From an uncultured Burkholderiales bacterium (GTDB lineage: Bacteria > Pseudomonadota > Gammaproteobacteria > Burkholderiales > Burkholderiaceae_C), in contig CAIRBP010000034.1 of NCBI GenBank assembly GCA_903876885.1, forward strand, positions 17,320 through 81,319: 64,000 nt of DNA. The letters run 5' to 3'. This document shows, piece by piece, positions 43,511-61,863 of this stretch. A model generated the notes under the pieces. It was not told the origin of the DNA. It did not search any database and saw only the letters and a list, made by a program, of their open reading frames with translations. The translations under genes were made by a program, and so were the position numbers. How positions within the stretch are numbered: position 1 is the stretch's first letter; every line of letters starts with the position of its first letter.

Positions 43511-44356
43511 TCAAGAACTCGTAACAAGACCTTCAGAGGTCCATTCTGTCAATGCAATATAGCCGTCCCTTGCAGCAACTACTAAGATATTGTTAAAGGT
43601 GTGAACAACCTGACCAGGATTGTTTTGATGTGGCTCGCTCCAACCAAGGAGCTGCCTGACCTTTACTCTGTATCCATTCACATTGGCAATGACCTCATGA
43701 ACTCCAAATGCATTAAAAATTCTTAGGAGCTCATCAACTTGGCAGTTAAAGTCTAAAGTCTTATCTTTCTCGCTCCACAAATGCCAAAATTCGCTCTGGG
43801 GTTGTGGCTCCGAGTTTTCCCAAAGTTGATAGAAGTTTTGAGCTACTTTTGCGGCCAATCGTTTATTGGCCATTTGAATTTTAATATCCAAAATATCATG
43901 TGTATCTGTATCCGCCAGTCTAAACTCTTCAACAGTTAATATGTCGCCTGAGTCGAATGCAGGTGCTAATTTATGGCAAGTTACACCCCATTTTGACCAT
44001 TTCTCTTTGATGGCGCGAATCATTGGATAGGGTCCTCGACCGACCGGCAAAGGAGAGGGGTGAAAATTTATAGCGTATTTTAGGAAAGGCGTCCAATCAG
44101 GGATCTTAAAACTATAACTAGCTACAACCAATGCATCGCAGTTATAAACGCTAAGACCTTTCAGATCCTCAGATTTAATGGGCGACATCTGAATTGGTAT
44201 ACCGCGCTGAACAGCAAAATTAATCGTAGCACTAACAGGAAAGACTCGGCTATCATCGGAGGGCAATGTGAAAAGTTTTACGGGAGTCCATCCCGCATCT
44301 ACGAAAGCCTCTATGATTCCTAAATATCGATCCGACGCTGTGAAAGCAAAACGCAT
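43511..44356 (-). CDS. Formyltransferase-family protein (sugar N-formyltransferase-like)
   Basis: The 281-residue protein has the folate-dependent formyltransferase fold. The catalytic segment AINFHPSPLPVGRGPYP carries the Asn-His pair, and FDSGDIL carries the Asp. A C-terminal domain (about 190-281) resembles the OB-like end of Fmt/ArnA-type enzymes. It is not the main tRNA formyltransferase, whose N-terminus and def neighbour are absent. With OGT-like genes next door, formylation of an amino sugar is the best guess. The start used is ATG 44356 (GGAG just upstream); an earlier in-frame start exists 12 codons up. Confidence 0.75.
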   Translation of the reverse strand: MRFAFTASDRYLGIIEAFVDAGWTPVKLFTLPSDDSRVFPVSATINFAVQRGIPIQMSPIKSEDLKGLSVYNCDALVVASYSFKIPDWTPFLKYAINFHPSPLPVGRGPYPMIRAIKEKWSKWGVTCHKLAPAFDSGDILTVEEFRLADTDTHDILDIKIQMANKRLAAKVAQNFYQLWENSEPQPQSEFWHLWSEKDKTLDFNCQVDELLRIFNAFGVHEVIANVNGYRVKVRQLLGWSEPHQNNPGQVVHTFNNILVVAARDGYIALTEWTSEGLVTSS

Positions 44357-44572
44357 GAAACTCCGATCAAAAAGAAGTAATAACTTGACCAAGCAAGCTT
44401 AGTTCTGAGGCTCTTCGGACTCAAACCTAAATTTGAGCTCTCAATGTAATCACAATAAACAGACTAGTTCAATTTTAACTATTCTCAGAGATTGTAATCT
44501 TCACCTTTGATCGAAAAATAAGCAACTTTAAAAATCCTGCCAATTTGGGCTGAATAAGACCATCAAAATCAG

Positions 44573-47032
44573 ATGATGACACTAGCTAAAGCGATACAAA
44601 CTGCTTTAAGTTTTCATGAAAAAGGAGAATTCGCAAAAGCAGTTCACATCTACACAGATGTGATCAAACAAGATCCGAGTCACTTTCAGGCACTGAACCT
44701 TTTAGGGCTGGCTTATCAACAGTTAGAGTGCGATCAAAAAGCCCTGGATGCATTTGAACTCGCCTTAAAACTCATAAATTCAAACTCCTTGACGCACTAT
44801 AGCGCCGGCGCATCTGCTTTAAAACTCGCAAGGCATTCACTAGCACTTAAACACACTAATTTCGCATTAATTCTTGCACCTGGAGATGCAAAGACAATTG
44901 TTAATCAAGGAATTGCGCTGCATAAATTAGGTGAATTAGAGGGTGCACGCAAGTCCTACTCCAGAGCAGTTTTGATAGATCCTTACTTTGCCGCTGCACA
45001 TTTTAATTTGGGTTGTACTTTACAAGAAATGGACTTTGACGGCGCGCTTAATTTGGCCGTACAAACTTACGCGATATCCATCGTATTAAATCCAGCTGAT
45101 CCCGCTGTCTATAACAATATTGGTAATGCCTTCAAAACAAAAAAAATATTTAATGAAGCAATAAAAAGCTTTCAAAGAGCGCTCATCTTAAATCCTTCCC
45201 TTGCTGTAACTCACTACAACAAAGGGACTACAGAGTACTTTGTTAAAAATTACGAATTGGCAATTAAAGACTTGACAAAGGCACTGGAACTTGATCCTGT
45301 TTCAGAATCAAGTTGGAACAATATTGGTAACGCCTTTAAAGAATTAGGCTCATACGCAGATGCTCTGAGGGCATATGAAAGAGTTTTGATATTGACTAGC
45401 GGTAGTCATAACTTTGAAATTTTTTATAACATAGGCGTTGCTCAACATGAACTTGGTCTTTATGCGGAGGCTTGCGATAGCTACACAAAGTCATTAAAAC
45501 TCGAACCTTTGTACACAAGAGCACTAAATGCTCGCGCAATTACACATAGACATTTAAGAAAATTTGATCAAGCTATTAGCGACTTTAAAGAGGTGCTCCG
45601 AATAGACCCCCATTTTGAATACGCTATAGGTAATTTACTGCATACTCAAATGCACATTGCCGACTGGTCTGATTGGGGTAAGTACGTTCAATCGCAACGA
45701 GAAAATACTGAGCTAAATCAACATTTGTTATCTACTCAAATTAGTAACGGCCAAAGAGTCTCGCATCCTTTTCCTGTGTTAGCGCTTTACGACGATCCTG
45801 CGCTAAATTTGAAAGCATCTCAGATTTGGTTCTTAGATAAACACTCTCCCCCACTTAGTGATTTGACTAATGAGCAAAATCAAAATCAAAAGCTCTCAAG
45901 GTCAGATTTAGGAAGGCGTATTCGCTTAGCTTACTTCTCAGCTGATTTTCATAATCATGCAACTGCTTACCTCATAGCCGAACTGCTTGAGTTGCATGAC
46001 AAAGAGGATTTTGAAATTTTCGCAATCTCTTTTGGACCTGAGACAAAAGACGAAATGCAATCTAGGATAATGTCAAGTGTTGATCACTTTTTACAACTCA
46101 GTCATTTAACAGACGCCCAAATCGCATCTCTTTGCAGAGAATTAGAAATCGATATTGCGATCGATTTAAAAGGTTATACGCTTCAAAGTCGCTTCAACAT
46201 ATTTATGTATCGATGTGCCCCAATTCAGGTTGGATACATTGGCTATCCGGGGACAAGTGGATCAACGTGTATTGATTATTTCATAGCGGACTCAATCTGT
46301 GTACCTGAGGGTGATGAACATTTATTTACCGAAAAAATTGTATTTATGCCAGGTGCATACCAAGTTAATGACTCTAAAAGGCACATAAAACCATGTACAG
46401 CATCGAAATCCGAAATGGGGTTACCAAATAATGGATTTGTATTTTGTTGTTTTAACAATGCCTACAAAATAACACCTAACACATTTGAGAATTGGATGAA
46501 TATTCTTCGTCAAGTGCAGGGGAGTGTTCTATGGTTGCTTGAGGATAGTGAAATAATTACTAAAAACCTCAGATCAGCTGCTCACCGTCTAGAGGTTGAC
46601 CCTGACCGTTTGGTATTTGCTAAGCGGCTAAGCTTGGAGGAACATTTAGGAAGACATATTCATGCCGATTTATTTCTTGACACACTCCCCTACAACGCGC
46701 ACACCACAGCTAGCGATGCGCTTTGGGCTGGTTTGCCCGTTTTAACACTCCAGGGTCACAGCTTTGCTGCTCGAGTTGCCTCAAGCCTCCTCAGCGCAAT
46801 CGGTTTGACTGACTTAATCACTGACTCAGCTGAGGCATATATCCAAAAAGCTGTGTACTTAGCCCTTAATCCGAAAGAGCTTGATGCAATTAAACAAACG
46901 CTTACTAGAAACATAGCAAGTTCTTCTTTATTTAACACCGCACAGTTTGCCCTTCAAATTGAAAGCGCTTACAAAACCATGATGACTAGGTTTTTAAAAG
47001 GTGAACCTGTAGATCACATTTTTATGAAGTAG
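44573..47032 (+). CDS. TPR protein with GT41 O-GlcNAc-transferase/SPINDLY-like domain (no. 1)
   Basis: The 819-residue protein has about nine TPR repeats in residues 1-360, then a complete GT41 catalytic domain (about 448-800). Residues matching the human OGT catalytic and UDP-binding set are visible: His462 in YFSADFHNHATAYL, the GYPGTSG loop, Lys632 in NNAYKITP and His710 in YNAHTTASDALW. The C-terminus PVDHIFMK resembles the animal OGT tail PDHMIK. Such enzymes move GlcNAc, fucose or another sugar onto Ser/Thr of proteins. It has no signal peptide, so it acts in the cytoplasm. It diverges from the formyltransferase gene. Confidence 0.88.
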   Translation: MMTLAKAIQTALSFHEKGEFAKAVHIYTDVIKQDPSHFQALNLLGLAYQQLECDQKALDAFELALKLINSNSLTHYSAGASALKLARHSLALKHTNFALILAPGDAKTIVNQGIALHKLGELEGARKSYSRAVLIDPYFAAAHFNLGCTLQEMDFDGALNLAVQTYAISIVLNPADPAVYNNIGNAFKTKKIFNEAIKSFQRALILNPSLAVTHYNKGTTEYFVKNYELAIKDLTKALELDPVSESSWNNIGNAFKELGSYADALRAYERVLILTSGSHNFEIFYNIGVAQHELGLYAEACDSYTKSLKLEPLYTRALNARAITHRHLRKFDQAISDFKEVLRIDPHFEYAIGNLLHTQMHIADWSDWGKYVQSQRENTELNQHLLSTQISNGQRVSHPFPVLALYDDPALNLKASQIWFLDKHSPPLSDLTNEQNQNQKLSRSDLGRRIRLAYFSADFHNHATAYLIAELLELHDKEDFEIFAISFGPETKDEMQSRIMSSVDHFLQLSHLTDAQIASLCRELEIDIAIDLKGYTLQSRFNIFMYRCAPIQVGYIGYPGTSGSTCIDYFIADSICVPEGDEHLFTEKIVFMPGAYQVNDSKRHIKPCTASKSEMGLPNNGFVFCCFNNAYKITPNTFENWMNILRQVQGSVLWLLEDSEIITKNLRSAAHRLEVDPDRLVFAKRLSLEEHLGRHIHADLFLDTLPYNAHTTASDALWAGLPVLTLQGHSFAARVASSLLSAIGLTDLITDSAEAYIQKAVYLALNPKELDAIKQTLTRNIASSSLFNTAQFALQIESAYKTMMTRFLKGEPVDHIFMK

Positions 47033-47082
47033 TGAGTACTATGAGGTTTTTACCCTAAATATGAGCCTTTATAAGTAAAGAA

Positions 47083-48129
47083 TTAAGCGTTTTCTGATCT
47101 TGCCTGCTGCTCAGTTGCGATTTCACGCTCAATGATCCTTCTTGAGTGAACTCCACCCGCATCAATATTTAGCTTCATCAAGCGTCGCTCGGGCCAATGC
47201 AGCAAATTACTTTGTTGACGCTCTAGCATTTGTAGATCTTCACTAAAAATACCACCTTGGCCTTGGCGTATTTGCTCGGTTAATTTAGCATCGTCAGCTT
47301 TGAATTGCCTGGCCATTCCCCAGAAATACCACATAGAGTGTTCATCCTCTGGGGTTATGAAGTCGACAACAGTGCTTCCCGCTTTTTCAGCAGCGGGCGC
47401 TTCATAGCCACCTTTGCCAGCACGTGCCACCCCAACATCTATCATGACGTGTGTGGGAAGAGAGAACTTACAAACTTGCCAGCGATCAACTAATTCATCC
47501 GCAGGCAAGCCCTGAGCAATCAAAGCAGCCTGCCAAAATGGTGGTGCTTTAACATTTTGCATATGTCGACTGGTGCACACAGTATGGCTATCAAAGGTTG
47601 TTTTAACAGGAACCTCTTCGATTTCCGACTGACCAATACTCGTTGCATGAACGTATGTCTCATGAGTCAAATCCATTAGGTTATCAATCATCAGCAAATA
47701 ATTGCAATTGATGTGATACATGCCCCCGCCATATGCCCACTCTGGATTGTCATACCACTTCATTACTGGGATCAATGAGGCATCAGCTTTGTCTGTGTCT
47801 CCTGGCCAAAGCCAGATGAAACCATAACGCTCAACAGCAGGAAAGTTTTTCACTCTTGGAAATTGACTGGTATTTTGACCTGTCATGTGCGCGGCGTGCC
47901 CCTTGCAATCTACGGCCAATCCGTGATAGCCACAAACGATATGATCTCCCCGCTGAAAGCCAAGGGAGAGGGGTGCACCTCGGTGAGGGCAGAAATCCTC
48001 TAATGCAGAGATCTCGCCTTTAGTGTTTCGAAAGAAGACGATTCTTTGGCCACATATTTTCCGGCCTAAAGGCTTATCTTGGACCTCAGCGCTAGAGGCT
48101 GCAACGTACCAGGTATTTAGAAGAAACAT
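47083..48129 (-). CDS. vanA: Vanillate O-demethylase-like Rieske oxygenase, alpha subunit
   Basis: The 348-residue ring-hydroxylating-type oxygenase has a Rieske [2Fe-2S] site CPH (Cys47, His49) and CGYH (Cys66, His69). The mononuclear iron site is in DNLMDLTHETYVHATS (Asp153, His156, His161). The sequence is VanA-like, and the substrate would be vanillate or a methoxy or hydroxy aromatic acid. No VanB reductase gene is adjacent, so the electron donor must lie elsewhere. It stands alone between two TPR genes. A role in sugar or lipid modification is possible but unsupported. Confidence 0.8.
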   Translation of the reverse strand: MFLLNTWYVAASSAEVQDKPLGRKICGQRIVFFRNTKGEISALEDFCPHRGAPLSLGFQRGDHIVCGYHGLAVDCKGHAAHMTGQNTSQFPRVKNFPAVERYGFIWLWPGDTDKADASLIPVMKWYDNPEWAYGGGMYHINCNYLLMIDNLMDLTHETYVHATSIGQSEIEEVPVKTTFDSHTVCTSRHMQNVKAPPFWQAALIAQGLPADELVDRWQVCKFSLPTHVMIDVGVARAGKGGYEAPAAEKAGSTVVDFITPEDEHSMWYFWGMARQFKADDAKLTEQIRQGQGGIFSEDLQMLERQQSNLLHWPERRLMKLNIDAGGVHSRRIIEREIATEQQARSENA

Positions 48130-48326
48130 AATCTTTAAGAATTAGAGTAAATTGGTAACTTAGAAAATCTCTTACGTTGTATTCTAAATCCCAGAACGTA
48201 GGATAGAAATAAAAACGGCCATATTTGAGCCTTGAAAGTCTGTTCAAACGCTCTGTAAAAACAAAAATTAACCCTTAAATGGAGATTAAAAACCGCTAAA
48301 CACATAAGGCTCGTGGAGGCTGTAGA

Positions 48327-49829
48327 CTAGGCATGTGCTTTGCTAAGCAGCATTTGACTAACAGCTTCTTTAGCCTTTAGTATGTGTCCTCGCCGATAAT
48401 CCCAAATTTCATCAGCAGGAGGCAGCGCCATGATCATAGTTGCATTAGCCTCAAACACCACGAGTTCACCTTGTGCGTCAATTGCAAAGTCAATACCCGC
48501 GTAATCAAGGGCTAACTCACGTTGGATCGACTCTAAAGCCTTTAAGGCTTTTGCCCCAATCGTCTCCTCCATTCGCTCAAGAAAAGCTTTTTCTTGATCT
48601 CGGTTCTCTGCAGAATCTTTCATCGCGGCACTGAAATAGTGGACTTTCCAGTGCTTTGAGATTGCAAGATGTAGAGGATATATATTTCCACCAATAAACA
48701 TAACTCTGTATTTCTTAAAATATCCTCTTTCATCCTTTGTATCTAAAAATTCCATTACAAGTAACTCAGCACCAGGAAGACTACTTGCAATGTTCGATAA
48801 GTCCTCTGGAGTTGATGCATACTCAAAGTGCTTTCCCGTTTGGAATCCTAAACTACGAACTAAAACTGGAAACTTTACCTTCAGAGTCAAAGCATCCTTA
48901 ATGGTTTCGGTGGTCTTGAGGTCTTCGCGATTTAATGTTCTGGTGTTTGCGGTTTTAACAAAATGAATCTTTTTAAAACGTTCTGCGTTAAATGTACGTC
49001 CGCTAAGTAGTACTTTATCGGGAGAATTAATTATTTTATTATTGGAATAAAAACTAGTAAACGATGGAATTGAATTGATTTGTTTATCAAAAAAATCTTG
49101 TGCGGCGAGCAAAGATATCTTGGATGAATCAGCATCGCCAATTGCATTTAAGATGAGATCGTATTGATCAAGGGGTTTCAGTAAATCCTTGGCTAATTGC
49201 CAAAATTCAACGGCTAATGTCTGAACAGAGAAAAGACTTTGATCAATGAGTGATGGCCAGGGAATATCCCCGCCGCGTCCACCAATTAGAACAAGCGCCG
49301 ACTTGCTCTTTGGCTTGTTTATCTGATCAAAAAATCTTATAGGCTCCAGAGTGAATCCTGAAGAGTGATGAAAATCTGCACGCTCTTGGTTCCCTTGCTC
49401 AAAGTTAATAAGCGCTAAACCTTGGTGTGCGTGAGCAACTTGCGAGATTGTGAAAGAATCTGATTTATTATTTTTATTTTTTGAATTAGCAATTGCCAAT
49501 ACTTTCTCATAATGATTACTCGCTTCTTTAAAATGCCTTTCTTGAAAATACAAATTAGCAAGATTTATATGGGCTAAAAGAGAATTGGGATGACAGGCTA
49601 AGGCTTGTGAATAAGCTGTTTTTGCAGCACTGTTGTACCCGGTATCTACCAGAAGTACAGCAAAATTAATCAAAGTCTCAAGATGAGTTGGATCGATTTT
49701 TAAGATATCCAGAAATTGTTTACGAGCAGTTTCAACCTGTCCCGTGGTCAACAAAATACTTGCTTGCTCGCATAGTATGTTTAATTGACTAGCACTTAAA
49801 GTTTGTGGAGCTTTTTGATGGTTATTCAT
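48327..49829 (-). CDS. TPR repeats fused to an ATP-grasp ligase domain
   Basis: The 500-residue protein has about four TPR units in the first 160 residues, a middle Rossmann-like part (SALVLIGGRGGDIPWPSL, about 180-200) and a C-terminal ATP-grasp fold (about 260-490). The ATP-grasp marks are KFPVLVRSLGFQTGKHF, LVMEFLDTKDERGYFKKYRVMFI, DYAGIDFAIDAQGELVVFEANATM and the metal residues in that last motif. ATP-grasp enzymes join a carboxylate to an amine via acyl phosphate. The start is ATG 49829 (GGGAAG seven bases upstream). It follows OGT-like gene no. 2 by 38 bases. Substrate unknown. Confidence 0.85.
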   Translation of the reverse strand: MNNHQKAPQTLSASQLNILCEQASILLTTGQVETARKQFLDILKIDPTHLETLINFAVLLVDTGYNSAAKTAYSQALACHPNSLLAHINLANLYFQERHFKEASNHYEKVLAIANSKNKNNKSDSFTISQVAHAHQGLALINFEQGNQERADFHHSSGFTLEPIRFFDQINKPKSKSALVLIGGRGGDIPWPSLIDQSLFSVQTLAVEFWQLAKDLLKPLDQYDLILNAIGDADSSKISLLAAQDFFDKQINSIPSFTSFYSNNKIINSPDKVLLSGRTFNAERFKKIHFVKTANTRTLNREDLKTTETIKDALTLKVKFPVLVRSLGFQTGKHFEYASTPEDLSNIASSLPGAELLVMEFLDTKDERGYFKKYRVMFIGGNIYPLHLAISKHWKVHYFSAAMKDSAENRDQEKAFLERMEETIGAKALKALESIQRELALDYAGIDFAIDAQGELVVFEANATMIMALPPADEIWDYRRGHILKAKEAVSQMLLSKAHA

Positions 49830-49867
49830 TTTAAATCTTCCCATTTCTAAATGCTTCGTAGTAAAAC

Positions 49868-52342
49868 TTATTTACAAATAGATTGAAGTATTTTTTCAAA
49901 ATCTCTAGTAAATTGAACAGTATCGAACAGAGCTAGTTGCCCATTGCGCTTAGCGTTAAGGAGACTATTTTTTATATTCGATAGTTGATGGGGATTCTGC
50001 GCGAGTTCACAAGCCAACTCAACATACTGATTGGGTGTTTGAGCAATCAGATTCTTTAACCCGACATGAGTCAGTAAACTTGCGGCTACTCTACTCGCAA
50101 AAGAATTACCCATTAAAGTAAGAATTGGAACACCGGCCCAAAGAGCATCACTTGCAGTAGTATGCGCGTTACAGGGGAATGTGTCTAAAAACAGATCCGC
50201 ATGTGAGATACGCTCTAAATGTTCAGGGTGCGGCAATCTAGGCGCAAAAATTAACCTATCAGTATTTAAACCTAGTGTCAGGGCTTGTTGGCACAAATTA
50301 ATCCTGGCAACAGTATTATCTTCTAGTAACCATAGAACACTACTAGGAGTTGCCTTCAAGATATGCACCCATCTCCTAAAAATATCTTCTGTTATTTTGT
50401 ATGTACTATTGAATGAGCAAAAAATAATACCGTTATCTGGCAGGCCGTGCTGATATTTTTTTGTATTACTGGAACTAATAGATCTTTGTAAATCGTTCAC
50501 CTGATAGGAAAAAGGCATAAAAAGAACTTTTTCGCCCATGTTTAATTCAAGTTCTTCATTGACTATAGTTTGATCTGCGATACAAAAGTCCATAAATGGT
50601 GCATCCATAGTCCCTGGATATCCAAGGTAAGCAATTTGAACTGGGGCTACACGCGCAGCAAAAATAGCAGTTCGGGCCCCATCTGTATATCCCTTCAGAT
50701 CAATAGCGATATCTAATTCATGCGAACGGGCTAACTCTATGGCCCGTGAATCGGTCAGTGACCCAACCTCGAACCATTTGTCAAAGGATCTCAATAATCG
50801 ATTTCTCATTTGACTTTTATCGTCCGAACTCCATGAATAAGCAATAATCTCAAAATTATGCCTATCATGTAATTCGAAAAATGATGCCATTAAATATGCT
50901 GTTGCGTGTTCTTTGAAATCACATGAAAAATAACCTATCCTGATTTTTTGTGATTTGCCAGATCGAATTAAGTTAAATTTGTTTTGAAGAATTAAATTTT
51001 TATTATTTTTAACAATTAGTTTGCACCACTCACGACTTGCTAGTTGGTGTAAATGCTTATCATCGGTTAGACTAAGAAGTGCAAATGGATGTACTAAAAT
51101 AAGAGCTTCCTTCACTGCGTTTAGAGCAAGCTCCCTAAGGCTTTCAAATTCAATAGAAACTGTTGAATTTTTTTCTTTAATAGTTACCGATGAATGCCAA
51201 TCACAAAGACGCATTCTCAAGTGAAGATAGGCTCCCAGAAGTTGTGGATACAAGGGATTCTCTGCTAGTGCTAGCTCAAAATATTTTCTAGCCAAGGTGT
51301 ATTCATATCGAAGGATTGAGAGCGCCCCAGCATTAAAGTAAAACGGGGCTAATCCTTGATTAAGTTGATCTAACAAGGAGGGATCTTGGCTTATGAGATT
51401 CATAAACCGCTCAACACATGAGTTTGCCAACTCATAATTGCCCATAGCTTGATAGACAACCAAAACGTTATTCAAGCTTAACAGATCATTCGGCTTGTGC
51501 ACTAGGGCAAGTTCATAAGACTCTAAAGCATCACTCCATTTTTCAAGCGAGGATAATATATTCGCCTTTAAATAATAAGCTTGAGGATTTTTCGGATTAA
51601 GCAGTATTGCTTTGTCATAACAATCTAGGATTTGTAATGCTTCGACCCCCATTAAATCACTTGTTCTTAATTTCTCAAGGGCTAAGCCTTTAAGTACAAA
51701 CAAGGAATCATCACCCGGATAAATTAAAGACGTTTCATTTAAAAAATCGATAGCATCACTAAAATAATTGCATTGTATTAGTGCCTTAGCAAGCAAAATA
51801 CCAGAGCTAATGTTTGCGTCAATGCTGTAACTTTTTCTAGCAAAATCAAGCGCCCTTTCATAGTTTTCTGACTTAGTCTCTAATTTATTTATTTGCTCTA
51901 AACTTTCTATCAATAAAGTTTTATGATCCGGGTCATCAATAAATCTATTCTCTAAAGTTAATAGGTTTATGAGTTGCAAAAAACTATGAATAGCTGGTCC
52001 AGTTTCACCGAGGTTTTGCTGGCACATAGCCAGACCTCTCCAAGCATATAACTCTTTTGCATTTATCTGTGTAACCCTTAAAAACCTAGCTCGAGCACTT
52101 CTCAAATCACCAAGTTGACCCTCAATTAACCCAAGGGCCATGAGGATCTTAGAACTTTCACCAAAAGTTTCCAATACTCTTAGGTATTGGAGTTGCGCCC
52201 CTTGCAAATCACCTTGATTCAGAGATTTAGTTGCGCTACGCAACTTGTTATCTAGTGCCTCTTCATTATGATTTAATTCATTATCATTAAACGCACCATT
52301 AGATCCACTGTGACCATTTTGATTTAAGGGATCAATCACCAT
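49868..52342 (-). CDS. TPR protein with GT41 O-GlcNAc-transferase/SPINDLY-like domain (no. 2)
   Basis: The 824-residue protein has TPR repeats over residues 30-370, then a GT41 domain at about 460-815. The catalytic pattern is complete: His479 (YFSCDFKEHATAYL), GYPGTMDAPFMDF, Lys649 (NSTYKIT) and His727 (CNAHTTASDALW). It is a paralogue of the gene at 44573, with a polar, Asn-rich N-terminus (NQNGHSGSNGAFNDNELNHN). The start is ATG 52342, with a TTG directly before it. Six to ten bases separate it from the upstream EamA stop, so they are one transcript. Confidence 0.88.
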   Translation of the reverse strand: MVIDPLNQNGHSGSNGAFNDNELNHNEEALDNKLRSATKSLNQGDLQGAQLQYLRVLETFGESSKILMALGLIEGQLGDLRSARARFLRVTQINAKELYAWRGLAMCQQNLGETGPAIHSFLQLINLLTLENRFIDDPDHKTLLIESLEQINKLETKSENYERALDFARKSYSIDANISSGILLAKALIQCNYFSDAIDFLNETSLIYPGDDSLFVLKGLALEKLRTSDLMGVEALQILDCYDKAILLNPKNPQAYYLKANILSSLEKWSDALESYELALVHKPNDLLSLNNVLVVYQAMGNYELANSCVERFMNLISQDPSLLDQLNQGLAPFYFNAGALSILRYEYTLARKYFELALAENPLYPQLLGAYLHLRMRLCDWHSSVTIKEKNSTVSIEFESLRELALNAVKEALILVHPFALLSLTDDKHLHQLASREWCKLIVKNNKNLILQNKFNLIRSGKSQKIRIGYFSCDFKEHATAYLMASFFELHDRHNFEIIAYSWSSDDKSQMRNRLLRSFDKWFEVGSLTDSRAIELARSHELDIAIDLKGYTDGARTAIFAARVAPVQIAYLGYPGTMDAPFMDFCIADQTIVNEELELNMGEKVLFMPFSYQVNDLQRSISSSNTKKYQHGLPDNGIIFCSFNSTYKITEDIFRRWVHILKATPSSVLWLLEDNTVARINLCQQALTLGLNTDRLIFAPRLPHPEHLERISHADLFLDTFPCNAHTTASDALWAGVPILTLMGNSFASRVAASLLTHVGLKNLIAQTPNQYVELACELAQNPHQLSNIKNSLLNAKRNGQLALFDTVQFTRDFEKILQSICK

Positions 52343-52351
52343 CAATAATTC

Positions 52352-53287: not shown

Positions 53288-53346
53288 TTCAGTTTTATGA
53301 ATAATTGATGAATTATTTTCTTTACCAATGGGGATTCAAGTTATGA

Positions 53347-55008
53347 TTAAATTGAAAATTGATTTTGTAGATCTTTAGTGATCGGTTCTAAAACACTGTC
53401 CCAATTCAATATTTGATTTTGTCGATATAACTTCATACTTGGATACCACGGTGAGTCGGTTCGCTCCATTAACCACCGCCAATCGGGTGAATAGGGGAGC
53501 ATAAGCCAGGTGGGCCTGCCCAACGCTCCTGACAAATGAGCGACGCTGGTGTCGACTGTAACGACTAAATCAACTAATTCGCATAAAGCAGCGGTGTCCT
53601 CAAAATCTTCTATATCCAAAGAGTTATCGATTAATCCCGGGACTTGCCGCAACAGCTCTCGCTCCCCTTCTCTAAATTCTTTTTGAAGACATACCCAATC
53701 AACTTTATCGCTCATTTCCATGAGGTAAGGAAGTAACGTCGCAAGAGGAATACTTCTGAAGGCATCGTTGTGATGAAATACGTTACCGCTCCAAACACAG
53801 CCCACTCGCGGTCTGGTTCTCTCACCGAGTTTGAAGATCCATTTCTCTTTTCTTGCTTGGTCTGCTTTTAAGTAGCTCTCAGTGGCAGGTATCTCATTCA
53901 ATACATTACGAAGCGCAAAGGGTAAACTAATTAATGGACAGTGAAAGTCAAATTCAGGAAGCGTCTCGCCCTGTCTAATCAAGAACTTTGCGCCTATGAT
54001 GTGCTTCATTAAAGAGTAAACAGAGGCCTGAACTTCAAAAAACACCCGATTACCGGTTGCCAAAACGATGGGTATGTAGCGGCAAAATTGCAAAGTATCA
54101 CCAATACCCTGTTCGCAGTGAATAAAAATGGTTCTTGAATTTAAAGATTCACAAAAATCCCGTCCTATCAAATCACTATGCATATTAGTGATGAATTGCC
54201 CAGTCCACTGAGGTTGCGAGAAATTACGCTGTTCTGAGGTAAATTCTTTCATCCTCCAACGCCACTCATGCTCCTCCCAACCTAACCTGTAGTTACCTTT
54301 CAAAAGAAGAGCTAGAGATTTGTTACTATGGGCAGGAGCATACTCAGGCCAAATCTCTAAGGTTTTATCAAAGCTCAGAATAGCTTCATCAATACGGTTT
54401 AGGAACTGCAACATTAATCCACGGTTGTTGTGAGCTTCCGCGTAATTTGGACGAGAATAAATGGCTCGCTCATAATAGATGAGCGATTCTTCCCAACGCT
54501 TAAGGAACTTACAGGTTTCAGCCAAGTTATACAGAGCTTCAGCATAATCTGGCAAAAGCACAACAGCATTTGCATAGCTTTCAAAAGCTTTTTCAAATTT
54601 CCCTAGATCTTTAAAAGCATTACCGCAGTTGTTATAAGCAGCATATAAATTTGGATCTAAATCTATGGCTTTTTCGTAACTATCGATCGCTTCATCGTAT
54701 CGTTTTAAGTCTTGCAAAACCAGACCCAAGTTACTGCGAGCCGCAGCAAAGCGAGGATTGAGAGCGATTACTTTTTTAAAAAGAGTCAAAGCTGCTTCAA
54801 GGTTTTTATTTTGGTACTCAAAGATACCTAATATATGCCAACAATCAAAGTTTAAGGGTTGAATTTTCACAACCTGCAAATAACAAGCCTTAGCTTTTTC
54901 ATTTTCTCCACTGTTTTGATACTCTACAGCTTGAGTAAGCAATTGAGTCAACTGCGAGATTATTCCCTTACTCAGCTTTTGCTGTTGAATTTGAAAAGGT
55001 GGGCGCAT
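53347..55008 (-). CDS. TPR protein with GT9-like glycosyltransferase domain (no. 1)
   Basis: The 553-residue protein has about seven TPR units in residues 12-245, with repeated N-x-G-x2-L and A-x2-N-x2-GN patterns. A GT-B domain of the heptosyltransferase (GT9)-like type follows at about 300-545. Marks are HCEQGIGDTLQFCRYIP (donor loop), GCVWSGNVFHHND and VDTSVAHLSGALGRPTWLMLPYSPDWRW, the last a common TPR-GT9 signature. ADP-heptose or another sugar donor is possible. The start is ATG 55008. It lies between the small membrane gene and the EamA gene in the same minus-strand run. Confidence 0.84.
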   Translation of the reverse strand: MRPPFQIQQQKLSKGIISQLTQLLTQAVEYQNSGENEKAKACYLQVVKIQPLNFDCWHILGIFEYQNKNLEAALTLFKKVIALNPRFAAARSNLGLVLQDLKRYDEAIDSYEKAIDLDPNLYAAYNNCGNAFKDLGKFEKAFESYANAVVLLPDYAEALYNLAETCKFLKRWEESLIYYERAIYSRPNYAEAHNNRGLMLQFLNRIDEAILSFDKTLEIWPEYAPAHSNKSLALLLKGNYRLGWEEHEWRWRMKEFTSEQRNFSQPQWTGQFITNMHSDLIGRDFCESLNSRTIFIHCEQGIGDTLQFCRYIPIVLATGNRVFFEVQASVYSLMKHIIGAKFLIRQGETLPEFDFHCPLISLPFALRNVLNEIPATESYLKADQARKEKWIFKLGERTRPRVGCVWSGNVFHHNDAFRSIPLATLLPYLMEMSDKVDWVCLQKEFREGERELLRQVPGLIDNSLDIEDFEDTAALCELVDLVVTVDTSVAHLSGALGRPTWLMLPYSPDWRWLMERTDSPWYPSMKLYRQNQILNWDSVLEPITKDLQNQFSI

Positions 55009-55074
55009 CAATACACTGGGAATTAAGCTATTGAAATAGTTTTAGCGGCGTTAATCATTGGTAGAGCAATGAAT

Positions 55075-55440
55075 TTATTTTTTTCTGAGAAAATTCATCC
55101 GAATCAACAAAATTTGATCCTGCCAAATGACACCTGTCAGTATGCCAGTTACAAAGACCTCAACGTCATTAATAAAGCCTTGAAGTGGGGTCAAGCTAAC
55201 CGGGTCTGGGGTCAAAAATATTAGAAATTCAAGAAGCACCAATGTGAGAGTAAAAATCGACCGAAGTAACTTAATACGTTGAAAAAAAGAATCCGGATGA
55301 CTCCAGAAAATTTGGCCTAATTTGAACAAAGCCCCGATATTTATCAATAAAGTTAGCTCTATGGGCATGGTTAGGACAAAGGGGGCAGTATAAAAATATA
55401 AAATAGCCAATAGTGCTTGTAAAACCATTAAAAAAATCAT
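55075..55440 (-). CDS. Small hydrophobic membrane protein, unknown
   Basis: The 121-residue protein has three or four hydrophobic helices: MIFLMVLQALLAILYFY, then IELTLLINIGALFKLGQIF, LRSIFTLTLVLLEFLIFL and VFVTGILTGVIW, with a basic end (RMNFLRKK). I recognise no family. It is the first gene of the minus-strand run that continues with a TPR-GT9, EamA, OGT-like and TPR-ATP-grasp gene, so it may belong to the same system, for example as a membrane partner. It lies 162 bases from the divergent OGT-like no. 3. Confidence 0.6.
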   Translation of the reverse strand: MIFLMVLQALLAILYFYTAPFVLTMPIELTLLINIGALFKLGQIFWSHPDSFFQRIKLLRSIFTLTLVLLEFLIFLTPDPVSLTPLQGFINDVEVFVTGILTGVIWQDQILLIRMNFLRKK

Positions 55441-55602
55441 GATTAATCCGGTACTTTTTGGGCTTAAAGGTTAATTTTACCTGCTTAAAGTCGATCAATA
55501 CTGGATATAACTTATGTGCCAATCGCTGTGTCATCCTGGAAATGTACTGATTCGAAGAAAAATTCTCATTAACCGTTGTAATCACCCCCAGATCTGATCA
55601 TT

Positions 55603-57852
55603 ATGAAGACCAAACTATCCCCTAAGGTTTTTCAGGAAAAGTTAACCCAAGCCATTGGTTTACAAAATTCTGGGCAAATCGATGCTGCTGAGACATTATT
55701 CCAAGAGTTACTTAAGGCAGATCCTAAGAGTTCAGCGGTTTTGTACTCTTTGGGAGCCATCGAATCTGCAAAGAAAAATTTCAAGCCTGCATATGATTAC
55801 ATTAAAAAATTACTTGGTTTGAGTCCGAAATTTGCACTCGGTCACCTGGCAATGTCAATTATCGAGTTCAACACTGGCAAATACCAAGAGGCCGTCATTT
55901 CGGCAAAAAAAGCGATTTCTATCGATCCCAAGTTAGATGCGGCTAAAGCTCACCTTGAAACAGTTGAAGTAGTCCTCAAAACTCAACTTCAAAACGGCCC
56001 AGAGACCACTCCGGAGGTTACAGCTCTGACCTCCAAGGGAATATCACTTCAAAATAACGGCGACAATCAAGCGGCTCAAGAAGCAATGCTTAGCGCCTTA
56101 AGGTTAGATAGCAAAAATTTTATTGCTCTTTACACCCTTGGCATAATTAGTATTGCTTTGAACCAAAATGACGCTGCAGTGGATTATTTTTCTAAGGCGA
56201 TTGAATTTCACCCCAAAATTGCTCAAGGCTACCACGCTAAAGGAAAATTACTATCCGATCTAGGAAGATACAACGAAGCATTAGATTGTTATCAAGAAGG
56301 CGCCAAAGTAGACCCTTCCCATCCTGGTATTTACATAAATATTGCTGCTTTATTGCAGTTTCTAAATAGACACAAGGAGGCATTGACTACGCTGCACGAA
56401 GCCTCTGAGATCATTCCAAATCACGTCATGCTTTTGGAGGGGCAAGGCATATTACTCACCCAATTTAAAGAATTTAAATTGGCTGCCAATATGTTCCAGC
56501 GTATTTTGGAGGTCGAGCCACACTCCCAAAAAGCAAATTCTCAGCTAATGCTTTGTAGAACCCACGACTGCGAGTGGGATGATTATGATCAGATTAAAGC
56601 TCGGATCGAACAAGGCATTCAAGATGGATCGAGAATCTGCGCACCCCTTACTTTTATGGGAATGTCTGGCGACGTCAATATGGTGAGAAAAGCCACGCAG
56701 GGGTATGTCAATGAAAAATTTAACTTCAACAATCCCCCACTTTGGAGGGGTGAGCAGTATAAACACCCGAAAAAACGCGTTGCTTTCATGTCCTCAGACT
56801 TCAGAATTCATCCGGTAGGGTATCTGTTTATTTCGATGCTTGAAAAAGCAAACAAATCAGAATTTGAATTAATCGGAATCTCGATCGGTATAAATGACCA
56901 AAGCGATCTGTGGAGAAGGTATCGCTGTGCGTTTGATCAGTACTTGGACTGTCAAACCAAGACAAATATTGAAATTGCCAAAATTTTACGTGCACTCGAA
57001 GTAGATATAGTCATTGACTTATCTGGTCATACTGAAGGCGAGCGCTTAGATGTCTTATCTCATAGACCCTGTCCTGTTCAAATCACATACTTAGGATTTC
57101 CAGGAACGCTTTGCCTACCTTTTGTGGACTATCTGATAACGGACCCAAGGACTGTACCCCCTGAGTACAGAGATGCCTTTACAGAGAAGATCTTAGAGCT
57201 TGAACATTGTTATTTACCCAGAGACAACTCTGTTAAACCTAGCGTCAAAGCACTTCCAAAGAGCGAATATGGACTACCTCCTGATGCTTTTGTATTTTGT
57301 AGTTTCAACCATAACTTTAAAATCACCCCGAGTATTTTTGGACGTTGGATGGAGTTGCTAAAAAATGTACCTAATAGTGTTCTTTGGCTAATGAAACTGA
57401 CTAAGGAAGCACAGGCAAACTTATTAAAAGCAGCTCATTCCCAAGGAATAGGTGAAGACAGGATTGTGTTCGCCTCGCGCGTGCCAAACTTAGAGGATCA
57501 CTTGGCACGCTACCAACATGCTGATCTTTTCCTAGACACACACCCCTACAATGGTCACACAACGGTTGGAGACTCTTTGCTATGCGGTGTACCAGTCGTG
57601 ACGCAAAGAGGATCGAGTTTTGCGTCACGCGTAGCGGGCAGTCTGCTCTATGATGTGGGCATGATGGACAATGTTTGCAATACTGAAGAGGCTTATTACC
57701 AACGAGCCCTTTACTTGGCAACTCATCCTGAGGAACTCGCGAACTCCAAACAGCACCTCAGCCAAGTATTAGAGAGTTCTTGGCCCAGATCGGATGAGGA
57801 TCAGTCAAAAGAGTTTTTTGACACTTTAAAGAAAATACAAATCAATGTATAA
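55603..57852 (+). CDS. TPR protein with GT41 O-GlcNAc-transferase/SPINDLY-like domain (no. 3)
   Basis: The 749-residue protein has two TPR blocks (about 10-120 and 140-310), then a GT41 domain at 385-740. The catalytic pattern is His403 (MSSDFRIHPVGYL), GFPGTLCLPFVDY, Lys573 (NHNFKITP) and His652 (YNGHTTVGDSLLCG), with the end DTLKKIQINV. It is more distant from the other two: the LGFPGT and GDSLLCGVPVVT variants resemble the common bacterial SPINDLY-like branch rather than the NAHTTASDALWAG form shared by nos. 1 and 2. The fatty-acid-hydroxylase gene follows after 33 bases, so the two are one transcript. Confidence 0.88.
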   Translation: MKTKLSPKVFQEKLTQAIGLQNSGQIDAAETLFQELLKADPKSSAVLYSLGAIESAKKNFKPAYDYIKKLLGLSPKFALGHLAMSIIEFNTGKYQEAVISAKKAISIDPKLDAAKAHLETVEVVLKTQLQNGPETTPEVTALTSKGISLQNNGDNQAAQEAMLSALRLDSKNFIALYTLGIISIALNQNDAAVDYFSKAIEFHPKIAQGYHAKGKLLSDLGRYNEALDCYQEGAKVDPSHPGIYINIAALLQFLNRHKEALTTLHEASEIIPNHVMLLEGQGILLTQFKEFKLAANMFQRILEVEPHSQKANSQLMLCRTHDCEWDDYDQIKARIEQGIQDGSRICAPLTFMGMSGDVNMVRKATQGYVNEKFNFNNPPLWRGEQYKHPKKRVAFMSSDFRIHPVGYLFISMLEKANKSEFELIGISIGINDQSDLWRRYRCAFDQYLDCQTKTNIEIAKILRALEVDIVIDLSGHTEGERLDVLSHRPCPVQITYLGFPGTLCLPFVDYLITDPRTVPPEYRDAFTEKILELEHCYLPRDNSVKPSVKALPKSEYGLPPDAFVFCSFNHNFKITPSIFGRWMELLKNVPNSVLWLMKLTKEAQANLLKAAHSQGIGEDRIVFASRVPNLEDHLARYQHADLFLDTHPYNGHTTVGDSLLCGVPVVTQRGSSFASRVAGSLLYDVGMMDNVCNTEEAYYQRALYLATHPEELANSKQHLSQVLESSWPRSDEDQSKEFFDTLKKIQINV

Positions 57853-57885
57853 CGCAAAGTAATTTGCTAATTCATTCCGGTCCTT

Positions 57886-58635
57886 ATGGAAACGTCGCTC
57901 TTAACTTTTTTGCTAAACGCTGGTTTTGCCATAACCCTAATGGTAATGGAACGGTTATGGCCTAACCACCCATACCAGCGTGATGTATCTTGGACTTTAA
58001 GGGCTGCCTTATTGGCAAGTGTTGGTATCGTATTAACGTTGATGCTAGGTAGCGTAGTTGAGGGCAATATAGAATTTATAAGGTTACATACTGATATTTT
58101 ATTTCGTTCAAATTTTTTGACTCATAACTTCAACGTTTGCATTCAAGGTTTGATAGGTTACTACTGTGTGACCTTCTTTGTTTACTGGTGGCACCGCTTG
58201 CGCCATTACAGCGATCATTACTGGAGGATTTTTCACCAAGTCCACCACAGCACCTACAGGCTAGAGACTTTAACTGCCTTTTACGCACACCCTACTGACT
58301 TCTTCTCGAATGCATTGATAGTAAATATTGTTGCCTATGTTTTACTGGGATATAACTTAGAGGCAGCGCTTTGGACATCATTTTGGGTTGGTATATTCGA
58401 GCTTTGGGAGCACACTAATATTAAAACACCTAGATGGCTTGGTTACTTTGTTGTGCGACCTGAGATGCACCGAGTTCACCATGAGCGCGACCGGCATAGT
58501 AACAATTACGGTATACCAATTTGGGACATGATATTTAGAACGTATGAAAATTCTTTAAGATCAGTAGATTGTGGATTTGATATAAAAAATGAGAAAAAAC
58601 TTCTCTCAATGCTTCTCTTTAAAAGAGTTGTATAA
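57886..58635 (+). CDS. Integral membrane fatty-acid hydroxylase / sterol desaturase family protein
   Basis: The 249-residue membrane protein has hydrophobic helices and the three His motifs of the di-iron hydroxylase family: HRLRH (His103, 107), HQVHH (117, 120, 121) and HRVHH (195, 198, 199). Family members hydroxylate or desaturate fatty acids, sterols or aromatic lipids using O2. It has no partner reductase here. It is downstream of OGT-like no. 3 by 33 bases and convergent with the TPR-GT9 gene no. 2. A lipid-tail modification in the same system is a speculation. Confidence 0.87.
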   Translation: METSLLTFLLNAGFAITLMVMERLWPNHPYQRDVSWTLRAALLASVGIVLTLMLGSVVEGNIEFIRLHTDILFRSNFLTHNFNVCIQGLIGYYCVTFFVYWWHRLRHYSDHYWRIFHQVHHSTYRLETLTAFYAHPTDFFSNALIVNIVAYVLLGYNLEAALWTSFWVGIFELWEHTNIKTPRWLGYFVVRPEMHRVHHERDRHSNNYGIPIWDMIFRTYENSLRSVDCGFDIKNEKKLLSMLLFKRVV

Positions 58636-58666
58636 TTAATTTTTAATTATCACTGAAACACTTGAT

Positions 58667-60724
58667 TCAAGATTTTTCGGCAATCAATTGCATAACAATT
58701 TCTCGCAAAACTTCAAAAACCGGTTGCCAATCCCCCCTGTTTTGTTGCCTGATTAGCTTTACACGGTGATAGCAAGTTGCGTCTTCAAAACCCTCACCCC
58801 AGCGCCAGTCAGAGGTGTAAGGTAGTAACACCAGTGTCTCTTTGCCTAGGGCGCCACTTAAATGAACAGTTGTGTTATCAGCAGATATGACCAAATCACA
58901 GGCCTTAATCAGACTGGCTAAAGCGTCCAAATCTTGCATCGCATCTAAATTTGGGGCCTGTTGGACTACGCCGACTTTACTTGACACCTGAATCAACTCA
59001 GACTGTACATCCCCATATTGAAGGTTAACTAAACGAATTCTCGGCATATTCAATGATTGAACCAAATCAGCAAGATTAAGACTTCTAGGGGCTCCAGTTT
59101 TAGGATTTTTACTACGCCAAGAAATTCCTATCAATAACTCCTCAGGACCGCTCAGTAAAGATTTAAAGCTAGCAGCACGGTCCTCGTCAGAGAGTAGGTA
59201 AGCGGCTACTGGGTTAGGTTTGGGCGTGAGAGTATTGCCCTTTACGGCTTCACTCATTTGATTTAATTGCATCACTGCCAAAGGCAAACTACCCATAGGC
59301 ATGTGAGCATCGTAGGAGGAATCATCCACTAAAAATTCTCTTGCCACGAATTGAAGTTCAGGTATTGATCTCTTGAATAAATTAATAAGTCTGCTATCGA
59401 CTCTGCAAATGATGCTTTTTCTTACAAAATTATGAGCGCTGATTAGTTTAGAAAACTCAATCAACCAAGGCAGAAAGAAAATCTCGTCACCAACTCCTTG
59501 CTCATTCCAAATAAAAATTTTCTGAGTATCAGATTCCTTTGTCCAAAGCGGTTTGGATGTTTTTAAGTATTTCCCTAAAAAATCATCAGAAAGCCAGCGC
59601 CACTCATACATTTGCCATCCAATACTGAAGGCTTGAAGTTTCAAATGCAAAAGGGATAAATTAAAGTGCGCATTTGCAAAGTCAGGCCTTAATGCTATGG
59701 CTTTTTGGAAATCGAATTTAGCGGAGTCAAAATTCTTTAGCTGCTCAAAAACAGAAGCTCTATTGAAAAAGGCCTCAACCATTTCTGGATTTTTTAATAT
59801 TGCGAGATCGTAATCCAGCTTCGCTGCGTCGAAAAATTCCAGAGTTTGATAGAGAGAACCACGGTTGTAAAAAGCCTCTGCTAGGTTGGGATCAAGCTCC
59901 AAAGCCTTTGTAAAACTTTGTAAAGCCTCGTCATATTTACCTAGCGCCTGAAGCAAGTTACCCCTATTGTTAAAGGCCAGAGCAAACTGCGGGTCAAGGT
60001 CTATACACGTGTTGTACTTTTCAAGCGCTTTGTCTAATTTGTGGTTACCCTGTAATGCAACTCCCCAGTTAAAGAAGGCTTGAACAAAGCCTGGGTTAAG
60101 TTGAGTTGCTAGCTCATAATCTATGCAGGCTAGCTCAAACCCCTGGGGCAAAACACCTGTCTCATAAAGAGCCTGAAGCGTAAGTCCCCTATTGTTATGA
60201 GCACTCGCAAAACTAGGATTTAATAATAGTGCACGGTTGTAGCACTCTAGTGCTTTCTGACGTTGGTCCGTATCTGGTGCTGCGCTTGTCACAACACCTA
60301 AGTTGAAATAAGCGTCATAAAACTGCGGATTTAACTCTAAAGACTTTGTATAAGCAAAAATTGCCTGATCAAAGCGATTAAGTGACTGGTAGACATTTCC
60401 AAGATTACTTTGACAGACACTGTGGTCTGGGTGAATTTTTATGGCCTGCTCAATTAGAGCTAGCGCTTGAATAGGCTCTCCTTGCTGATAGTGAACTACG
60501 CCAAGGTAATGCAGGGCATCAAAGTGATTTGGCTGAGAATTGAGGATCTCTTGGTAGATAGGTTTTGCAAGATCTAATTCATTTTTTACATGTAATCCTA
60601 TAGCTTGTTCAAGCAATAGTTGAGAGGAAGTATTTATCTGAGTTCCACTAAATTGAATGTGTTTTGGCACGATGCCCTTCTTGGGCTTAGTTTTTGAGAA
60701 GTTTCTGAATTTAGATCCTGACAT
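58667..60724 (-). CDS. TPR protein with GT9-like glycosyltransferase domain (no. 2)
   Basis: The 685-residue protein has about ten TPR units between residues 30 and 355, very regular with GNLLQALGKYDEALQSFTKALELDP-type repeats. A GT-B domain follows at 400-680. Its donor loop is WNEQGVGDEIFFLPWL, then ISWRSKNPKTGAPRSLN and the SADNTTVHLSGALGKETLVLLPYTSDWRWG signature shared with no. 1. The N-terminus is basic (FRNFSKTKPKKGIVPKH). It stands alone on the minus strand and converges with the hydroxylase gene; a divergent region separates it from the DUF1080 lipoprotein. Confidence 0.84.
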   Translation of the reverse strand: MSGSKFRNFSKTKPKKGIVPKHIQFSGTQINTSSQLLLEQAIGLHVKNELDLAKPIYQEILNSQPNHFDALHYLGVVHYQQGEPIQALALIEQAIKIHPDHSVCQSNLGNVYQSLNRFDQAIFAYTKSLELNPQFYDAYFNLGVVTSAAPDTDQRQKALECYNRALLLNPSFASAHNNRGLTLQALYETGVLPQGFELACIDYELATQLNPGFVQAFFNWGVALQGNHKLDKALEKYNTCIDLDPQFALAFNNRGNLLQALGKYDEALQSFTKALELDPNLAEAFYNRGSLYQTLEFFDAAKLDYDLAILKNPEMVEAFFNRASVFEQLKNFDSAKFDFQKAIALRPDFANAHFNLSLLHLKLQAFSIGWQMYEWRWLSDDFLGKYLKTSKPLWTKESDTQKIFIWNEQGVGDEIFFLPWLIEFSKLISAHNFVRKSIICRVDSRLINLFKRSIPELQFVAREFLVDDSSYDAHMPMGSLPLAVMQLNQMSEAVKGNTLTPKPNPVAAYLLSDEDRAASFKSLLSGPEELLIGISWRSKNPKTGAPRSLNLADLVQSLNMPRIRLVNLQYGDVQSELIQVSSKVGVVQQAPNLDAMQDLDALASLIKACDLVISADNTTVHLSGALGKETLVLLPYTSDWRWGEGFEDATCYHRVKLIRQQNRGDWQPVFEVLREIVMQLIAEKS

Positions 60725-61844: not shown

Positions 61845-61863
61845 GTAGGAATTGATAGACAAA

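Follow-up and report, generated by a model that had tools for sequence, protein, structure and literature searches.

The cytosolic GT41 enzyme HMW1C modifies the large secreted adhesin HMW1 by N-glycosylation, in a system that uses two-partner secretion, and the serine-rich-repeat adhesins of Gram-positive bacteria combine a repeat protein with the glycosyltransferases GtfA/B and an accessory Sec exporter. Here we analyze a 17-kb island of genes for tetratricopeptide repeat (TPR) enzymes, three of them with GT41 domains, in a 64,000-nucleotide stretch of contig CAIRBP010000034.1 (G000:C34:17320-81319, hereafter the window) from an uncultured Burkholderiales bacterium (assembly GCA_903876885.1, 2.2 Mb, 68% complete), together with a giant gene of eight-residue repeats (Pfam family ALTTAQ, PF20080) that accompanies the island in related genomes. 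We propose, at a probability of roughly 0.6, that the TPR-GT41 enzymes of the island act on the ALTTAQ giants in the cytosol, by O-glycosylation, before type I export.

In its apparent working, the island resembles both FlmG with flagellin and HMW1C with HMW1, but by the tests made it is neither. An HMW1C-type N-glucosyltransferase was rejected as an identity for the island GT41 enzymes, which score 34.9, 31.8 and 22.9 bits with NCBIfam model NF049992, far below its cut-off of 1000. With the serine-rich-repeat adhesin systems the proposed system would share a repeat protein, dedicated glycosyltransferases and a dedicated exporter, while the repeats, the enzymes and the secretion route are different. 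Caulobacter FlmG is, like the island enzymes, a soluble cytosolic TPR-glycosyltransferase, and it engages its exported client through the TPR part ahead of secretion; unlike the island, FlmG has flagellin as its client, pseudaminic acid as its donor and a single glycosyltransferase (PMC7591256), whereas the island joins three GT41 enzymes with GT9-like and ATP-grasp ones and is linked to an ALTTAQ giant as candidate client. Human OGT and plant SPINDLY share with the island the GT41 catalytic domain, its key motifs, a partial Asn ladder and a pocket Cys (OGT) or Tyr (SPINDLY) (PMC9715652, in part), but they are eukaryotic regulatory enzymes with many clients, in contrast to the bacterial gene cluster here, which has a repeat-protein gene nearby. 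Finally, Paracoccus BapA/BapBCD likewise comprises a giant low-complexity protein adjoining its type I secretion system (T1SS), and BapA is needed for biofilm; unlike ALTTAQ, its repeats are Asp-Ala dipeptides, which rules out BapA as a known ALTTAQ protein, and the term 'glycosyl' is absent from the main text of that paper (PMC5588039, in part).

Conservation of the island and the adjoining ALTTAQ gene

The preliminary description of the window, made from the sequence, had reported three TPR-GT41, two TPR-GT9-like and one TPR-ATP-grasp gene within 17 kb, a set that Pfam confirmed, and had suggested a multi-step modification pathway whose genes should stay together in relatives. They do: among the 84 genomes of the genus that were searched, six others hold the island (G054, G031, G032, G043, G049 and G051, selected for comparison because they hold it). 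The conserved order is formyltransferase - GT41a - Rieske - ATP-grasp - GT41b - EamA - GT9a - small protein - GT41c - hydroxylase - GT9b, and its repetition in six other genomes marks the island as more than a chance assembly. GT9b is absent in G043 and G051, the 3-keto-disaccharide-hydrolase gene at the island's edge is absent in G043 and G049, and the island is divided between two contigs in G032 and in G051. Judged by identity to the window's proteins, GT41b (41-52%), GT41a (47-62%), the ATP-grasp protein (51-59%) and the GT9-like proteins (55-67%) drift far faster than GT41c (72-89%), the Rieske protein (80-89%) and the large chain of the flanking carbamoyl-phosphate synthase (93-97%), with the formyltransferase at 70-81% and the 121-residue protein at 64-72%.

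To the right, the island is followed by an operon for an outer membrane efflux protein (OEP), a membrane-fusion protein (MFP) and a resistance-nodulation-division (RND) transporter (PF00873, E 1.2e-255 on own-genome locus L137), which stands between it and the ALTTAQ gene. Past this operon, the giant gene is found in five of the six island-bearing relatives, namely G054, G031, G032, G049 and, with five extra genes between, G043; the 15 kb read in G051 showed no such gene. The PF20080 scores, against a cut-off of 26.4 bits, are 100.1 (L045), 115.7 (L046), 441.7 (L048), 220.1 (L051) and 55.7 (L063), and 82.8 bits for L137. In the window's own genome, PF20080 matches lie on four contigs (C112, C21, C87 and C99), each of which ends inside the gene. 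Contig C87 reads ALTTAQ - Adhesin_E - RND - MFP fragment, and since 141 bases at its end are identical to those at the right end of the contig that holds the window (a comparison of ends, the contigs not being joined), the near end of the ALTTAQ gene apparently lies about 4.2 kb past the window. The earlier statement that no target gene is visible thus holds for the window, with a candidate just beyond its right edge, and the search of the flanks for a repeat-rich Ser/Thr or adhesin target gave a positive outcome in five of six relatives and, by contig overlap, in the own genome. Protein O-glycosylation of an adhesin-like protein, one of the outputs considered in the preliminary description, fits this conserved linkage and flanking target, and that interpretation is to this extent partly supported. 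We also observed an Adhesin_E (PF16747) gene between the RND and ALTTAQ genes at L137:1584-2000 and L045:8050-8526.

Across 42 proteins of the genus, the repeat has the consensus L-[ST]-T-x-Q-[IV]-x-A. In a fixed register, Ser or Thr occupies position 2 in 78% of island-clade octads and 75% of the others, and position 3 in 84% and 85%, respectively, as counted over 1075 octads (225 of the island clade and 850 others, some from other families) in 43 segments of 200 residues picked for repeat density. AlphaFold2 (AF2), given a 200-residue own-genome segment with 34 related segments, predicted one-turn helices arranged as a regular solenoid (pLDDT 92.7, pTM 0.82), for which Foldseek against the PDB returned weak likeness only, the best being mesothelin (E 1.7e-4, TM 0.41). 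Our literature search, to which most subscription journals and bioRxiv were outside scope, found no paper naming ALTTAQ or 'DUF6467' (a guessed older name), and none on the ALTTAQ-GT41 pairing in the titles or abstract openings of the matches listed.

Recurrence of the ALTTAQ-GT41 pairing

The pairing extends to whole genomes. In the genus, GT41 occurs in 52 of 84 genomes, ALTTAQ in 53 and both in 42 (Fisher 2.6e-5, phylogeny uncorrected). In a family sample of 250 genomes, 69 carry ALTTAQ, 154 carry GT41 and 65 carry both (Fisher 3e-12, likewise uncorrected), so that GT41 is present in 65/69 ALTTAQ carriers versus 89/181 other genomes. The phylum sample of 349 genomes holds 25 ALTTAQ carriers, 17 of them with GT41.

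It also recurs at other loci, where T1SS genes often stand between or beside the two partners. Three island-bearing relatives have a second locus of the form ALTTAQ - HlyB - HlyD - TPR-GT41 (L081-L083), with flagellin nearby in two; L085 and L090 show HlyB - HlyD - TPR-GT41, ALTTAQ not being in view; and a cassette of G040 (L093) reads GT41 - HlyD - HlyB - ALTTAQ, its GT41 being a member of the GT41c clade. Five genomes of another class (family f43; L145/146, L147, L149, L150 and L151) have ALTTAQ, HlyB and/or HlyD and a TPR-GT41 of 1249-1358 residues together, the T1SS genes being recognized by BLAST to the HlyB/HlyD of L082 alone (HlyD only at L145, HlyB only at L147). On plasmids, Cereibacter sphaeroides 2.4.1 pA carries ALTTAQ (WP_011836189.1, 1192 bits), a TPR-GT41 (WP_011836188.1), an ABC transporter (WP_011836187.1) and HlyD, with sulfotransferase and dTDP-rhamnose genes nearby; a Pseudomonas sp. 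DTU plasmid carries ALTTAQ, GT41, T1SS genes with TolC, and GDP-mannose dehydratase; a Pseudoroseomonas plasmid carries ALTTAQ, two GT41 genes, UDP-glucuronate decarboxylase, HlyD and an ABC gene; and a P. asturiensis plasmid carries ALTTAQ with TPR-GT41 and T1SS genes (ALTTAQ in the last two was identified by tblastn only). Among plasmid records found in the top 60 matches for both proteins, 26 of 27 have their best ALTTAQ place no more than 10 kb from their best GT41 place, a figure biased toward the joint outcome by a GT41 query taken from C. sphaeroides.

Several features of these loci deserve a separate record. The longest ALTTAQ frame among the places listed, of 6361 residues, starts 187 bp from a TPR-GT41 gene (G019:C29, L089:5022-20000), and in G433 (L153:3250-14553) an ALTTAQ gene adjoins that of a 3767-residue protein in which four GT41 domains (eight Pfam stretches) accompany many TPRs. 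A metalloprotease-like gene (HE.GH..G..H) repeatedly adjoins ALTTAQ giants (Table 1; Pfam M10/reprolysin matches were checked on L055 only), and it may encode a co-secreted processing enzyme. In the ALTTAQ-linked glycosyltransferase cluster of G029, L055:8540-9700 encodes 386 residues with a weak match to PF10250, GDP-fucose protein O-fucosyltransferase (22.5 bits versus 31.5). Open reading frames (ORFs) of all fetched loci came from a longest-ORF script, which may prefer antisense frames in GC-rich loci (e.g., L155).

GT41 domains of the island

The GT41 domains are well supported, with PF13844 scores of 280 (GT41a), 297.7 (GT41b) and 227.9 bits (GT41c) against a cut-off of 25, in two stretches each that correspond to both catalytic lobes. 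All three keep the motifs DF..H, FN...K and N.HTT, so the key His, Lys and N.HTT residues named in the preliminary description are in place; the residue that aligns with another active-site His of human OGT, which we take to be His558, is Asp. The best solved relatives of GT41b are OGT chains (E 3.8e-82), with SPINDLY at E 9.5e-54, and the GT41 relatives of solved structure carry protein glycosyltransferase names, except one named TPR_2 repeat protein. Pairwise identity of GT41a, GT41b and GT41c is at most 37% among the pairs listed, and a crude scan of the TPRs found a clear Asn ladder in GT41a, GT9a and GT9b.

A donor-size switch has been proposed at Cys917 of human OGT and Tyr744 of SPINDLY (PMC9715652, in part). 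At this position the island members have Tyr in GT41a (7/7, in the motif LDTLPYNAHTT in the window) and in GT41c (7/7), and Cys in GT41b (6/6 readable, the seventh gene being cut by the end of its locus); because Tyr and Cys thus occur side by side, the sequences suggest two donor types within one island.

In a midpoint-rooted tree of GT41 proteins scoring above 230 bits with our own hidden Markov model, in envelopes of 280-520 residues (95/96 with the domain), GT41c falls in a 12-row clade (100/100) with five members outside the island (L055, L057, L058, L093 and L078). ALTTAQ lies within 10 kb of four of these five, L055, L057, L058 and L093, while L078 is flagellin-linked and L055 has both neighbors. 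A 35-row clade (100/98), apart from all three island GT41 enzymes, contains 11 of the 12 rows linked to flagellin only, and it also holds the T1SS-cassette GT41 enzymes of the genus at L079, L081-L083, L085 and L090.

Gene content and partner enzymes

The features of the island and its right edge, together with the metalloprotease-like genes, are collected in Table 1. The Pfam scan covered 40 of the 56 window ORFs of at least 100 residues, with cut-offs of 22 bits for PF01075 and 21 bits for PF08443.

Table 1. Coordinates of genes in and beside the island (window positions) and of metalloprotease-like genes next to ALTTAQ giants (locus positions)
Feature	Coordinates	Strand	Evidence
Formyltransferase-like	43511..44392	-	PF00551/PF02911 above cut-off; neither clear Fmt nor named sugar formyltransferase
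GT41a, TPR + GT41	44573..47032	+	PF13844 E 3.8e-83; Tyr donor pocket
Rieske/VanA-type oxygenase	47083..48129	-	PF19112 E 3.2e-49, PF00355 E 1.4e-20
TPR-ATP-grasp ligase, RimK-type	48327..49844	-	PF08443 24.3 bits
GT41b, TPR + GT41	49868..52345	-	PF13844 E 1.7e-88; Cys donor pocket, OGT-like
EamA-type transporter	52352..53287	-	PF00892 E 1e-26
GT9a, TPR + GT9-like	53347..55011	-	TPRs; PF01075 19.7 bits, below cut-off 22
121-residue hydrophobic protein	55075..55440	-	no Pfam match
GT41c, TPR + GT41	55603..57852	+	PF13844 E 2.3e-67; Tyr donor pocket
Fatty-acid-hydroxylase-superfamily protein	57886..58635	+	PF04116 E 2.2e-26
GT9b, TPR + GT9-like	58667..60724	-	PF01075 20.8 bits, below cut-off 22
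3-keto-disaccharide-hydrolase-like, island edge	61000..61599	+	PF06439 E 1.8e-39
Outer membrane efflux protein, first gene of OEP-MFP-RND operon	61852..63462	+	PF02321 E 8.4e-44
Metalloprotease-like	L055:16783-19353
Metalloprotease-like	L057:4161-6719
Metalloprotease-like	L058:12196-14763
Metalloprotease-like	L097:16758-19367
Metalloprotease-like	L115:5124-7709

The formyltransferase, EamA, small-protein and hydroxylase genes of the preliminary description are all present, and its wording 'GT9-like' proved apt, as both PF01075 matches are sub-threshold; other GT9 proteins, adjoining GT41 in L081 and L095, pass that cut-off. It had overlooked the Rieske/VanA-type oxygenase and the 3-keto-disaccharide-hydrolase-like gene, and its remark that the window has no nucleotide-sugar gene was nearly right, the 40 proteins scanned including one of the phosphoglucomutase/phosphomannomutase family. 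This gene (30944-32287) lies in a housekeeping setting 11 kb from the island and, judged by that setting, is probably glmM, which would put one gene for a sugar precursor inside the window. The left flank encodes FtsH, an FtsJ-like protein, GreA, carbamoyl-phosphate synthase subunits and TerC; on the right, a membrane-fusion gene comes after that for an outer membrane efflux protein. Elsewhere in the window, a 604-residue open frame without any Pfam match (13774-15588) stands between rho-like and MatE genes.

The AF2 model of the TPR-ATP-grasp protein (pLDDT 92.3) resembles D-Ala-D-Ala ligase (7u9k, E 1.6e-8) and RimK (5zct, E 8.7e-8) in Foldseek. In a betaproteobacterial metagenome-assembled genome, a 1180-residue ORF (L129:7853-11395, CAITMU010000010.1) that adjoins a GalU-like gene fuses TPR-GT9-like and TPR-ATP-grasp halves, and because of this fusion the two activities can be regarded as tied together. 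The multi-step pathway of the preliminary description gains from it, but the association of strong TPR-ATP-grasp matches with ALTTAQ falls short of significance, and no evidence connects the formyltransferase, Rieske or hydroxylase genes with a glycan. By NCBIfam, the formyltransferase scores 82.8 bits for fmt (cut-off 201.5), 33 for ArnA (777) and 25 for dTDP-4-amino sugar formyltransferase (238), and the hydroxylase 57.9 bits for OlsE (475). In G034 (L095:1356-8599), a Rieske oxygenase gene, 64% identical to the window's, and a reductase gene directly precede a 1721-residue ALTTAQ gene, followed by GT9 and GT41; given this neighborhood, the system may include the Rieske enzyme.

Proposed mechanism and alternative explanations

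In the mechanism that we propose, cytosolic island enzymes would attach sugars to the Ser/Thr ladder of the giant ALTTAQ octapeptide-repeat proteins. The TPR superhelix would read the repeat array and set the GT41 sites over Thr/Ser at octad positions 2 and 3, where GT41b, with its Cys pocket, might use an N-acetylhexosamine donor, and GT41a and GT41c, with Tyr, a smaller sugar. The TPR-GT9-like enzymes may then lengthen the first sugar, and the TPR-ATP-grasp enzyme may add an amino acid, or form another carboxylate-amine bond, on the glycan or the protein. The glycosylated giant would then leave the cell by type I secretion and be either displayed or shed there. For the Rieske, hydroxylase, EamA and formyltransferase genes, roles in donor or lipid chemistry are guesses, and these genes may be bystanders.

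Several points weigh against this proposal. The evidence for it is comparative; the synteny of the island represents one inherited event; and the Fisher tests are uncorrected for phylogeny. At the island itself, the RND operon intervenes before the ALTTAQ gene, and neither HlyB nor HlyD was seen next to that ALTTAQ copy, whose contigs end inside the gene. The GT41a and GT41b clades consist of island members only, with no ALTTAQ-linked member outside, and the crude scan showed no clear Asn ladder in GT41b, GT41c or the ATP-grasp protein. ALTTAQ carriers without detected GT41 amount to 11/53 in the genus, four in the family sample (G107, G143, G169 and G188) and 8/25 in the phylum sample, the last with 1-5 ALTTAQ matches each; 33 of the 60 listed ALTTAQ plasmid records have no GT41 match among the top 60, some of these ALTTAQ matches being doubtful, and at the Shinella HZN7 ALTTAQ locus no gene within 15 kb is annotated as GT41. 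TPR-ATP-grasp proteins, moreover, are widespread: in a search that limited scoring to the 7996 candidates with most words in common, each of the best 120 of 2970 protein matches spans 91% or more of the query. ALTTAQ is present in 8/17 family genomes with a strong TPR-ATP-grasp match (E 1.2e-43 or better, since all 250 genomes match at E 0.001, mostly via the TPR part) versus 61/233 others (p 0.09), and this wide spread and non-significant association rule out the protein as a marker of the ALTTAQ system.

The main rival explanation, which we regard as rather unlikely, is that the island glycosylates the large flagellins of the cell, as FlmG does in Caulobacter, and that the link to ALTTAQ is incidental. 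The own genome encodes two such flagellins, of 891 (L009:9959-12634) and 1163 residues (L011:390-3881). Flagellins of 1100-1490 residues are frequent in the genus, often with an adjoining TPR-GT41. Our neighbor survey read the flanks of 65 GT41 loci in 42 of the genus's 52 genomes with GT41 (the others being G002, G013, G017, G021, G048, G050, G055, G075, G077 and G078; a divergent GT41 on own contig C102 was excluded on score), and here fliC, found within 10 kb of 19 loci, exceeds ALTTAQ, found at 15, a further point against ALTTAQ as the client; both counts are lower bounds, as many surveyed contigs stop less than 10 kb from the GT41 gene, and the 15 do not include four island loci with ALTTAQ on the same contig at 10.1-13.4 kb. 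In the family sample, GT41 is present in 128/189 flagellin-bearing genomes versus 26/61 others. Precedents agree with this alternative, since GT41 enzymes in flagellin islands have been reported (PMC4875605, in part) and FlmG is a TPR-glycosyltransferase for flagellins (PMC7591256, in part). Against it, none of the four flagellin-type matches in the own genome is on the window's contig, the fetched island flanks of the six relatives hold no flagellin gene, and the GT41 enzymes linked to flagellin only fall, with the exception of L078, in the 35-row clade away from those of the island. ALTTAQ also predicts GT41 even among the 189 flagellin-bearing family genomes (63/67 ALTTAQ carriers versus 65/122 others). 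Without linkage at the island, flagellin as its direct client is not the best reading, and we retain it as the main rival.

We give small credence to a second alternative, in which the island serves more than one exported client (ALTTAQ giants, flagellin and others) and the six TPR arrays provide differing client specificities. It would fit the deep divergence of GT41a, GT41b and GT41c, old paralogues with differing donor-pocket residues and TPR lumens, and the linkage of both ALTTAQ and flagellin to GT41 enzymes of the genus, but near the island the analysis found no gene for a second client. It is very improbable that the island serves to synthesize or decorate a polysaccharide or lipid of the cell surface (lipopolysaccharide or an ornithine-type lipid), with the TPRs for complex assembly: GT9-like domains (of the heptosyltransferase family) and fatty-acid-hydroxylase-type, formyltransferase and EamA genes are present, but the 40 scanned window proteins include no polysaccharide polymerase or lipid-linked-sugar enzyme, their only sugar-phosphate mutase-family gene is outside the island (a MatE-family transporter is present), the solved GT41 relatives bear the names of protein glycosyltransferases or, in one case, of a TPR_2 repeat protein, and nothing found supports the surface-polymer output that the preliminary description had allowed.

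Glycosylation of the ALTTAQ giants by the island enzymes admits a broader and tentative extension, to which we would give less than even odds. The ALTTAQ giants may represent widespread, undescribed mucin-like glyco-solenoids, composed of hundreds of octad helical turns with Thr/Ser pairs, coated in the cytosol by TPR-GT41 enzymes running along the array and exported by a dedicated type I system; among the versions met, that of the island would then be the most elaborate, an assembly line of six TPR enzymes providing two starter sugars, extension and an amino-acid cap.

Implications

If glycosylation of the ALTTAQ giants by TPR-GT41 enzymes is true, it would provide a client for orphan bacterial OGT-like enzymes and a function for the Pfam repeat family PF20080. 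The system would constitute a bacterial counterpart of mucins and serine-rich-repeat adhesins that could be studied in the tractable Cereibacter sphaeroides 2.4.1, and a sugar-coated, near-periodic peptide would offer a clean model for how a TPR superhelix chooses its glycosylation sites. The ALTTAQ-GT41 pairing recurs in distantly related bacteria, far beyond the locus of the island.

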